Shown here: piece after piece, positions 23,532-29,517 of the stretch
How the letters are laid out: the number at the start of each line of letters is the position of its first letter
How positions within the stretch are numbered: position 1 is the first letter of the stretch
Assembly: GCA_023300665.1 (NCBI GenBank)
Contig: JALZUU010000457.1
Location: 1 to 33,599, forward strand
Origin: Saprospiraceae bacterium
GTDB lineage: Bacteria; Bacteroidota; Bacteroidia; Chitinophagales; Saprospiraceae
Direction of reading: 5' to 3'
Length of the DNA stretch: 33,599 bases
Made by a program: the position numbers and the translations under genes
Notes under the pieces: generated by a model
What the model saw: the letters and a program-made list of their open reading frames with translations, nothing else
Told to the model about the DNA's origin: nothing
The model's database searches: none

Positions 23532-25301
23532 TTAGCCATTCATAGAAGTTAAGAACTCTTCATTCGTTTGCGTATGTAGCATATGCTTACGTAAGAATTC
23601 CATCGCTTCGTCTGGCTTCATATCTGCTAAGTGCTTACGAAGGATGAACATTCGCTGTAAAGTTTCCTTATCAAATAGCAAGTCTTCTCGACGAGTACTG
23701 GATTTGGTAAGGTCGATAGCAGGGTAGAGACGTTTGTTGGCCAAAGAACGATCCAACTGTAACTCCATGTTACCTGTACCTTTAAATTCTTCGAAGATTA
23801 CTTGATCCATCTTAGAACCTGTATCAATCAAGGCAGTTGCTAAAATAGTTAGTGAACCACCTTTTTCAACGTTACGTGCTGCACCAAAGAATTTTTTCGG
23901 CTTGTGTAAAGCATTTGCTTCTACACCACCTGATAATACTTTTCCGCTAGCAGGTGCTACGGTGTTATAAGCTCGTGCCAATCGTGTAATCGAATCGAGT
24001 AGGATTACTACATCGTGACCACATTCTACCAAACGTTTGGCTTTTTCTAAGACAATGTTTGCCACTCTTACGTGGTTATCTGCTGGCTCATCAAACGTCG
24101 AAGCGACCACTTCTGCATCTACGTGACGTTTCATATCCGTTACTTCTTCTGGACGTTCATCAACTAGTAAAACTAGTAAATAACATTCAGGATGATTTTT
24201 TGCAATTGCGTTGGCAACATCTTTTAATAAGAAAGTTTTACCTGTCTTAGGTTGTGCCACGATCAAACCACGTTGTCCTTTTCCGATTGGAGAAAACAAA
24301 TCAATCATTCGCTCTCCGTAATCTTTTCCATTTCCAGTTTTATCCGTTAATTGAAATTTCTCATTAGGAAATAATGGCGTTAAATAATCGAAAGGAACTC
24401 GATCTCTTACCTGTTGTGGTTCCAAACCATTGATGTTAGAAACTCTTAATAAGGCAAAATATTTTTCTCCTTCTTTTGGTGGGCGAATCGCACCTTTGAC
24501 AGTATCTCCGGTTCTCAAACCAAATAATTTAATCTGGCTTGGAGAAACATAAATATCATCAGGAGAAGTCAAGTAATTATAGTCAGAAGAACGTAAGAAA
24601 CCATAACCATCAGGCATCATTTCTAAAATTCCTTCTCCTTCTATAATACCATCTAATTCAATATTAAATTTATCCGGATCTGGTGCTGCAGGTGCTTCAC
24701 GACTGTCTCTACGATCTCGATCATCCCGATCATCTCGGCTACGACTATCACGGCGATCATCTCTACGATCATCACGGCGGTTATCGCGGCGATCGTCTCT
24801 ACGATCATCCCGACTGTCACGGCGATCATCTCTACGATCGTCCCGGCGATCGCGGTCATCGCGGCGATCGTCTCTACGATCATCACGGCTATCGCGACGG
24901 TCATCCCGACTATCTCTACGGTCTCGATCATCCCGATCATCTCGGCTACGACTATCACGGCGATCATCTCTACGATCATCACGGCGGTTATCGCGGCGAT
25001 CATCACGACTATCGCGATCAGCAGAACGACGGGTAGTTGTTTTACGATCACCATTACTTCGGCTAGATGTTTTTTCGCTTTGCTCATCTTCCTCAGACTT
25101 TGTCGTCTTAGAAACAGGCTTGGAACGTTTTTCTTCTTTCTCCTTTTTACCACTATCTTCTTTACCTACCGCTTGTTCGTCAAGGATTTTATAGATTAGC
25201 TCTTTTTTTGTCAATTTCTTATACCCTTTTAGCTCTAGTTCTTCCGCTAGATTTTTAAGTTCAGGTACCAGCATATCATTTAGCTGCAAAATGTCGTACA
25301 T
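23532..25301 (-). CDS. rho: Transcription termination factor Rho with RDD-rich insertion
   Basis: Rho N-terminal helical domain ([34 protein letters not shown]), RNA-binding domain ([48 protein letters not shown]), Walker [20 protein letters not shown]. Confidence 0.98.
24706..25001. repeat. 89-bp near-identical direct repeats within the Rho RDD-rich coding segment
   Basis: 24706-24794 and 24913-25001 are identical except for one base; offset 207 bp (69 codons, in frame). Confidence 0.9.
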
Positions 25302-27227: not shown

Positions 27228-27920
27228 ATGAATATGGATTATATGATTTATTACGCTATTGCTGGTATTATGACCATGATTGGTGCCGCAGTAAGTGGGC
27301 GTTTAAAATCAAAATTTGCTCAATACAGCAAAGTTCCTTTAAGTAAAGGACAAAGTGGAAAAGATATTGCTGCCGAAATGCTAGCGTATTATGGCATCAG
27401 TGATGTAAAAATTGTTCGAGGCCAAGGAACTTTAACTGATCACTACAATCCAGTGACAAAAACAGTTTCTTTAAGCCCAGATGTACATGATGGCCGACAC
27501 GTAGCAGCAGCAGCGGTAGCCGCACATGAGTGTGGACACGCTGTTCAGCACGCTGAAGCTTACTCGTTTTTGACGATGCGCTCTAAGCTAGTCCCTATGG
27601 TAAAAGTAGCTTCAATTGCCCAAGGATATGGATTAATGATCGCGTTAATGATGGCGGGTTCAATTCCTCAACTATTACTTGCAGTGATCGTTGCTTTTGC
27701 TGTAACTAGCTTGTTTGCTTTTATCACACTTCCAGTTGAATTTGATGCAAGTAAACGTGCATTAGTTTGGCTCGATGAAAGTGGAGCAACGGCTGGAGCG
27801 GAACAAGAAGGTGCTAAAGATGCCTTATGGTGGGCGGCGATGACTTATGTTTCTGCTGCTATGTCTTCACTAGTAATTCTTGTATACTTGCTTTTCCGTT
27901 ACGCAGGTACTAGACGATAA
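27228..27920 (+). CDS. Zinc metallopeptidase, YugP family membrane protein
   Basis: VAAHECGHAVQHAEAYSFLTMRSKLVP (HExGH), several TM helices, LPVEFDASKRAL motif. Confidence 0.93.
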   Translation: MNMDYMIYYAIAGIMTMIGAAVSGRLKSKFAQYSKVPLSKGQSGKDIAAEMLAYYGISDVKIVRGQGTLTDHYNPVTKTVSLSPDVHDGRHVAAAAVAAHECGHAVQHAEAYSFLTMRSKLVPMVKVASIAQGYGLMIALMMAGSIPQLLLAVIVAFAVTSLFAFITLPVEFDASKRALVWLDESGATAGAEQEGAKDALWWAAMTYVSAAMSSLVILVYLLFRYAGTRR

Positions 27921-27970: not shown

Positions 27971-28013
27971 AAAGCCCTAAAAACTGAATTACCAGTTTTT
28001 AGGGTTTTATTTT
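27971..28013 (+). terminator. Intrinsic terminator after the metallopeptidase gene
   Basis: CCCTAAAAACTG-aattac-CAGTTTTTAGGG followed by TTTTATTTT. Confidence 0.85.
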
Positions 28014-28185
28014 GATCCTCGCCGATTTTAATATAACTTAGCATTCCCAAAATTGAAAAAAAATATTAGAATAATTTTATTAGACTTTATTTTAATGTAA
28101 ATAGTGGTACATTAGGAATGCTTTTTGCAAAGCCAATGACTACTAACACGAAGGAAATATTCAATTTTATAGCCTCTAAAATACT

Positions 28186-28941
28186 ATGAGTACAAAGAAA
28201 AAACGATTCGTCTTTACGGAATTTAAGACCCTGCAACACACTAGTTTTGAAAAGCTCGAAAAAGTTTGTGATAAACTTTTCGTTCTAATTAGACCAGAAG
28301 AACAACAAATTCCTTTTCCATTAGTTTTAGCCATGCAACGAATGGGAAAAAATGCAAAATGGGTCATGGCCAAATCTACGAATGCTGGTTCTCTCGAATT
28401 TCACCTTTCTTTTTTATTAGGAAAATTAGATGAAAAACTCGACGAAGAAATCGAATTCGCTATCTTATCTGGTTCTACCAATTTAGATACTGTTATTGAT
28501 TTTATCAACCAAAGCGGAAGAAGTTGCCTTAGAGTAACCGTCGAAGAGACAGAAGCAGAATACGAAACAGAAGAAATAGAAGGAAATAGTTATCTGATTA
28601 ATGAAGAAGTAGAATACGAAACAGAAACTGATCTGCAGATTGATCTTAGTGAACCTTCTAGCAGTAAAACAAAAGAAATAAATACGCAGACCACAAACCT
28701 GTCTACTACTACTTCTAATGTTATTAATAAACAAGATATTGAAACTAAAGCATTAGAAACGGTACAACGATTACAGTACACTGGGAATCGGCCTGCTGAA
28801 GTAATTTTATTAAGAGATTATATTGCGCTATTCCATCAAGGAATTGAAGACGACGACGGACAAGCAGACCAAATTATTAATAAATTGGTCGAAAACAAGC
28901 AAATTGAAGTCCGCAAAGGAATTATTAAATACAATTTTTAA
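28186..28941 (+). CDS. Divergent PIN7/NYN-like domain protein with C-terminal wHTH-like region (tentative)
   Basis: KLFVLIRPEEQQIPFPLVLAMQRMGKNAKWVMAKSTNAGSLEFHLSFLLGKLDEKLDEEIEFAILSGSTNLDTVIDFINQSGRSCLRV follows the PIN7-type pattern; C-terminal VILLRDYIALFHQGIEDDDGQADQIINKLVENKQIEVRKGIIKYNF resembles a winged helix. Confidence 0.6.
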   Translation: MSTKKKRFVFTEFKTLQHTSFEKLEKVCDKLFVLIRPEEQQIPFPLVLAMQRMGKNAKWVMAKSTNAGSLEFHLSFLLGKLDEKLDEEIEFAILSGSTNLDTVIDFINQSGRSCLRVTVEETEAEYETEEIEGNSYLINEEVEYETETDLQIDLSEPSSSKTKEINTQTTNLSTTTSNVINKQDIETKALETVQRLQYTGNRPAEVILLRDYIALFHQGIEDDDGQADQIINKLVENKQIEVRKGIIKYNF

Positions 28942-28953
28942 ATCATAACTATT

Positions 28954-29517
28954 ATGCACGAAGAAGTAATAGCAACTATCAAAAAGGCAGAAAAAGGAAT
29001 GCACGAAACAGTCGAACATCTCGAAAACGAGTTGCTCAAGGTTCGTGCAGGTAAAGCTTCGCCTTCCATGTTAAACGGTCTAATGGTCGATTATTATGGA
29101 TCGCCAACACCACTTAATCAAGTGGCAAATATCATTCTTTCTGATTCTAGAACCATCAGCATTCAACCGTGGGAAAAACCCATGATCGGCCCAATTGAGA
29201 AATCTATCTTTGAAGCTAATCTAGGAATTACGCCTCAAAACAACGGAGAAATGGTGATTCTAAATATTCCACCGTTAACGGAGGAACGAAGAAAAGATCT
29301 AGTTAAAAAATCCAAATCTTTGGGAGAAGAAGCAAAAGTTTCTATTCGTAATAACCGTCAAAAAGCAATGGACTTTATCAAACGGTCCGTAAAAGATGGA
29401 TATCCTGAAGATCAGGGTAAACGAAAAGAAAGTGAGGTGCAAGAAGAAGTAGAAAAATTCAACGCTAAGATCGCTAAGATGATCGAATCAAAAGAAAAAG
29501 ATATCATGACGATATAA
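28954..29517 (+). CDS. frr: Ribosome recycling factor
   Basis: LLKVRAGKASPSMLNGLMVDYYGSPTPLNQVANI; PPLTEERRKDLVKKSKSLGEEAKVSIRNNRQKAMD. Confidence 0.98.
   Translation: MHEEVIATIKKAEKGMHETVEHLENELLKVRAGKASPSMLNGLMVDYYGSPTPLNQVANIILSDSRTISIQPWEKPMIGPIEKSIFEANLGITPQNNGEMVILNIPPLTEERRKDLVKKSKSLGEEAKVSIRNNRQKAMDFIKRSVKDGYPEDQGKRKESEVQEEVEKFNAKIAKMIESKEKDIMTI

Follow-up and report, generated by a model that had tools for sequence, protein, structure and literature searches.

A gene directly upstream of frr in a Saprospiraceae bacterium encodes a protein that resembles the PIN7 family, with changes at residues expected to form the active site. This raises the question of what such a protein is retained for, and whether its place beside the gene for ribosome recycling factor (RRF) bears on its role. 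The window, i.e., the whole stretch of DNA that was analysed (33,599 nt), contains the following features in and around this gene:

27228–27920, forward strand: putative neutral zinc metallopeptidase (Zn_peptidase_2; PF04298, E 1.1e-73), below Zn-peptidase
27971–28008, no strand assigned: bidirectional intrinsic terminator-like hairpin between the Zn-peptidase and PIN7 genes, stem kept in 6 of 7 species
28186–28941, forward strand: PIN7-family protein with a degenerate active site, 251 aa (ORF and PF18475, E 3.5e-12)
28186–28539, forward strand: PIN domain, residues 1–118 (alignment with proteobacterial PIN7; omega about 0.047)
28219–28221, 28228–28230, 28396–28398 and 28474–28476, forward strand: altered sites E12, T15, E71 and S97 (alignment with proteobacterial PIN7)
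28486–28488, forward strand: D101, unaltered (alignment with proteobacterial PIN7)
28540–28731, forward strand: fast-evolving acidic and Ser/Thr-rich linker, residues 119–182 (omega about 0.26)
28732–28938, forward strand: C-terminal wHTH-like domain, residues 183–251 (NRP...YI...YNF), common to ordinary PIN7 proteins (omega about 0.022)
28912–28972, forward strand: 61-nt block from the 3' end of PIN7 across the 12-nt gap into the frr start, invariant in 7 of 7 species
28954–29517, forward strand: frr, ribosome recycling factor, 187 aa (PF01765, E 1.3e-59)

The earlier note had placed the protein in PIN7 by eye, and profile searches bear this out. PF18475 (PIN7, Pfam) matches residues 24–111 and, with 47.3 bits, exceeds its curated cut-off of 34, all 63 full-length Saprospiraceae relatives match it as well, and a profile of the Saprospiraceae proteins aligns with six proteobacterial PIN7 proteins at an hhalign probability of 99.8 (E 4.2e-28), in 195 columns that take in the C-terminus. 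The motifs on which the note had relied, FVFTEFKTLQ, AGSLEFH and SGSTNLD, align unambiguously with FVLIDYENVQ, NALDFH and SKDKGFD of the proteobacterial proteins. As the match is shared by all these relatives and extends through the C-terminal domain, the likeness to PIN7 is, at the level of sequence, true homology over the whole protein (PIN domain, linker and C-terminal wHTH-like domain), and the C-terminal part is kept from ordinary PIN7 proteins, as had been claimed. Proteobacterial PIN7 proteins (e.g., Variovorax QRF63099.1, Acetobacter WP_157886611.1 and Cupriavidus WP_045242046.1) likewise consist of a PIN domain, a variable linker and a C-terminal domain that ends in Y-x-F/L. Unlike the window gene, they are plasmid-borne, and none of the six adjoins frr.

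A second PIN-type family was compared. Rae1 (YacP, NYN_YacP, PF05991) of Bacillus subtilis is a ribosome-dependent endoribonuclease, as cited in PMC6294520. By family assignment it shares a PIN/NYN-type fold with the window protein, but the window protein has no PF05991 match at E 1, and a PF05991 search found no Rae1 gene in the window's own genome. A sequence search of solved structures with the window protein returned nothing meaningful. AlphaFold2 reached a pLDDT of 51.7 for the full protein and 46.2 for the PIN domain alone; this confidence is low because the input could include no more than seven near-identical sequences, which made for a shallow alignment. In the better model, itself of low confidence, strands and helices alternate, the C-terminal domain follows an HHH-EE order and the linker is unstructured and of low confidence. 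Foldseek matched this model to Csm6, Cam1, Can2 and, at rank 19 behind CARF proteins, the NYN domain of MARF1 (E 0.058); these matches were left out of the evidence. A phage or anti-phage defence gene was considered and rejected, with no PHROGs or PADLOC match at E 0.01 and no match on viral contigs.

Whether the protein can still act as a nuclease depends on its active site. As no PIN7 protein with measured activity was found in the literature looked at, we borrowed the catalytic set from the PIN/NYN superfamily: D12, N15, D71, D97 and D101 in the numbering of the window protein. The reference proteins, the six plasmid-borne proteobacterial ones, were found with an approximate PIN7-like query and are represented by database sequences only. 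They read D-N-D-D-D, with single deviations in two of them (Ser instead of N15 in one, Ser instead of D101 in the other). Where D-N-D-D-D is taken to define PIN7, the window protein reads E-T-E-S-D, and so do its six congeners (7/7 species); the changes are D12E and N15T in motif 1, D71E in motif 2 and D97S in motif 3. The statement in the earlier note that Asp/Asn positions are altered in three motifs thus stands in that each motif has a changed site, but it overlooked that D101 is retained and that two of the four changes, D12E and D71E, are conservative. Judged by these residues, the window protein is a PIN7-family homologue in which the catalytic set of a nuclease is incomplete.

Among 68 Saprospiraceae relatives the complete five-residue set occurs in one (L081), and four, three, two and one canonical residues are kept in 16, 16, 21 and 14, respectively. 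Orthologues with intact catalytic residues, which the note had named as speaking against its reading, therefore come down to a single sequence. The other two conditions named there do not apply either, as the profile match is clear and frr synteny recurs in other genomes. This gene (L081, 1941–2672) does not adjoin frr and provides an intact control. Position 12 is D in 41 relatives, E in 14 and another residue in 13; position 15 is N in 23, D in 23, T in 11 and another in 11; position 97 is D in 44, S in 11 (including the whole of the window's genus), E in 7, N in 4 and K in 2; and position 101 is D in 64. At position 71 (N 33, S 9, E 7, D 1, others 18), in motif 2, the non-acidic letters include Asn, Ser, Ala, Gly, Cys, His, Tyr and Lys, and the seven sequences with Glu are those of the window's genus. 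By PIN/NYN motif context rather than by alignment, we take position 71 to correspond to the Asp pair of KHNYN. In this PIN-like protein the D524A/D525A mutation abolishes activity (PMC12709174). By parsimony on the PIN7 tree, a quick build with weak deep branches, the canonical state has changed at least 8, 10, 2, 13 and 5 times at positions 12, 15, 71, 97 and 101, respectively. In these alignments, active-site decay is thus family-wide and mosaic, and extends beyond the window's own lineage.

The same residues could also belong to an RNase that is still active with a remodelled metal site, its activity weaker or differently tuned. Because E12, E71 and D101 remain, such an enzyme is conceivable in the window's genus, and these three acids count against a pseudonuclease. 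In the family as a whole, position 101 is acidic in 67/68 and position 12 in 55/68, Asp/Asn swaps occur elsewhere and L081 is fully canonical, all of which fits a remodelled site, as do the D-to-E changes at 12 and 71; of the four acidic positions of SMG6, too, one is occupied by Glu (E1282; PMC12923823). We nevertheless consider continued catalysis unlikely, as Ser97 is genus-wide, position 71 is neither D nor E in 60/68, and the catalytic columns except 101 rank only 54th to 91st of 114 in conservation, i.e., middling to low within their own domain.

Lost catalytic residues and a patchy presence across Saprospiraceae could also mark a decaying pseudogene. However, the PIN7 reading frame is open in 7/7 species of the window's genus, and omega estimated from these seven species (dS about 1) comes to 0.047 in the PIN domain, against 0.030 in frr; the C-terminal domain has 0.022, the Zn-peptidase 0.028 and the linker 0.26. 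The constraint on the degenerate PIN domain is almost as strong as that on frr. Given these low values within the genus, the gene encodes a maintained protein under strong purifying selection; the omega estimates rule out the pseudogene reading, to which we attach next to no probability. Constraint has also moved to other residues: R7, F10, W59, G79, F91, R112 and R116 are invariant in 68/68 relatives, and E90 and K23 nearly so. Of these, R7, W59 and R112, and with them the near-invariant E90 and K23, count as newly arisen. All six proteobacterial PIN7 proteins lack R7 and a single one has R112, whereas G79 and R116 are old. This conservation pattern fits a fold that was kept while new constraints were gained.

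Strong conservation without a full active site would also fit a composite nuclease. The degenerate PIN domain would then supply what a second PIN protein needs for a complete catalytic centre, in the way established for the inactive SMG5 PIN domain with SMG6 (PMC12923823). We regard this as highly improbable here, since a single PIN7 gene was found per genome, with no candidate partner, and separate lineages have lost the sites independently of one another. SMG5 resembles the window protein by description: its PIN domain lacks catalytic acids and is retained for function (PMC12923823, PMC6294520), but it is a eukaryotic NMD factor whose partner, SMG6, is known.

The reading that we prefer, giving it an even chance of being correct, is that of a PIN7-family pseudonuclease retained as an RNA-binding protein and co-expressed with frr. 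An ancestral PIN7 RNase would have gained a second, non-cutting role in binding RNA, which may be contacted through the PIN domain (the new basic invariants R7, K23 and R112 together with the old R116) and through the C-terminal domain. With this second function under selection, the catalytic residues could then have drifted in several lineages independently, in a protein presumably co-expressed with frr. Inactive pseudonucleases of the Ssd1/Dis3L2 type (RNase II) act as RNA-binding proteins and have lost their active site at least four times (PMC8097288). These fungal proteins share with the proposed history the repeated loss of an RNase active site and a lasting RNA-binding role, but they are eukaryotic and have an RNase II rather than a PIN fold. 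Among the pseudonucleases that we found in the literature, those with worked-out roles come from eukaryotes. In the present case, a single bacterial family displays many stages of active-site loss in a strongly selected gene that adjoins a core translation gene, so that it can be tested whether the second function came first and catalysis was lost later, with L081 as the intact comparison. The literature searched held no paper naming PF18475 or joining Saprospiraceae with a PIN domain, which is not proof of novelty.

The frr side of this reading can be followed across genomes. In the window, PIN7 ends 12 nt upstream of frr on the same strand, exactly as the earlier note had it, and the pairing recurs elsewhere: among 69 informative genomes (a set that includes one extra congener), 58 have PIN7 ahead of frr in the same orientation, and the arrangement occurs in 24 of the 28 genera holding the gene. 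The gap has a median of 95 nt and is 12 nt throughout the window's genus. Upstream of the pair lies the Zn-peptidase gene in 33 of the 52 loci with enough flanking sequence; the other 19 loci, from nine genera, have a different neighbour there, and the PIN7–frr pair is still intact. The association with frr is genuine and, in several lineages, has survived a change of neighbours. Further upstream in the window, an ORF at 23532–25301 resembles, judged from its sequence, transcription termination factor Rho with a long repeat-bearing N-terminal insert.

A real link may still be a passive one, with the gene inserted into or lost from a serS–Zn-peptidase–frr block conserved across the family, sharing a promoter and having a function unrelated to recycling. 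This explanation, whose chances we put just short of even, concerns the linkage and is compatible with a pseudonuclease. Genera without PIN7 mostly show serS–Zn-peptidase–frr and some pyrH–frr, and the Zn-peptidase gene lies directly before frr in about two thirds of those sampled. In addition, 11 genomes carry PIN7 away from frr, among them five species whose protein lacks the C-terminal domain, and PIN7 presence mapped on the weakly supported frr tree needs 16 changes, which fits many losses at one site. A passive link sits less well with the persistence of the pair in the nine genera with another upstream neighbour, and with the junction block that is invariant in the genus. As most family members have the serS–Zn-peptidase–frr block without PIN7, recycling as such does not require the gene in an organism with RRF.

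For the RNA-binding pseudonuclease, a role at the ribosome is plausible, with the frr link as its sole basis. A target on mRNA or on the ribosome, engaged during termination or recycling, is possible but doubtful. Rather unlikely is the fuller version, in which a former PIN7 RNase of Saprospiraceae now serves as a non-catalytic translation factor, acting with RRF at terminating or stalled ribosomes and made from one transcript with frr. If a role of this kind exists, the PIN7 protein would be a candidate new partner of ribosome recycling.

The region between the genes bears on their co-expression. A terminator-like hairpin precedes PIN7 and none was seen between PIN7 and frr, so the two genes likely form a two-gene transcript; co-expression is further suggested by the short gap, the terminator ahead of PIN7 and the conservation of the junction, and the co-transcription proposed in the earlier note thus appears probable. 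The next longest invariant run in PIN7 and frr after the 61-nt block is 17 nt, and a run of 61 was reached in 0 of 20,000 codon-block permutations. This block, AT-rich and little structured, most likely holds the frr initiation region and possibly also a promoter. Predicted accessibility of the frr start does not differ between loci with and without PIN7 (mean 0.42 vs 0.46), by which a special hairpin at this start in PIN7-positive genomes was rejected, and no Rfam element at the locus exceeded the gathering threshold. Upstream of PIN7, the sequence TTAGGAATGCTTTTTGCAAA at 28112–28131 is kept in 6/7 species and has a single occurrence in the genome. A 23-codon frame opened by its ATG overlaps the start of PIN7 in the window, but shares the reading frame of PIN7 in three congeners. 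Two congeners, L002 (about 450–600) and L003 (about 1330–1480), share an extra stretch of about 150 nt just upstream of the PIN7 start, possibly a small repeat, which the other congeners lack.

PIN7 was found in 69 of 298 Saprospiraceae genomes and 28 of 112 genera, including 7/7 species of the window's genus. It is missing from about three quarters of the family, in a survey of mostly MAGs where absences depend on assembly completeness; we count this absence against a pseudonuclease tied to frr. No relatives were detected outside Saprospiraceae in 396 genomes of the phylum (Pfam) or in 295 of the class (63-sequence profile), and no diverged PIN7 stands before frr in genera without the gene (best match E 0.16, 40 loci). 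Five species of one genus (L082, L083, L085, L089 and L091) have a shortened PIN7 without the C-terminal domain, which lies away from frr beside a common neighbour and in which motif 2 has decayed.
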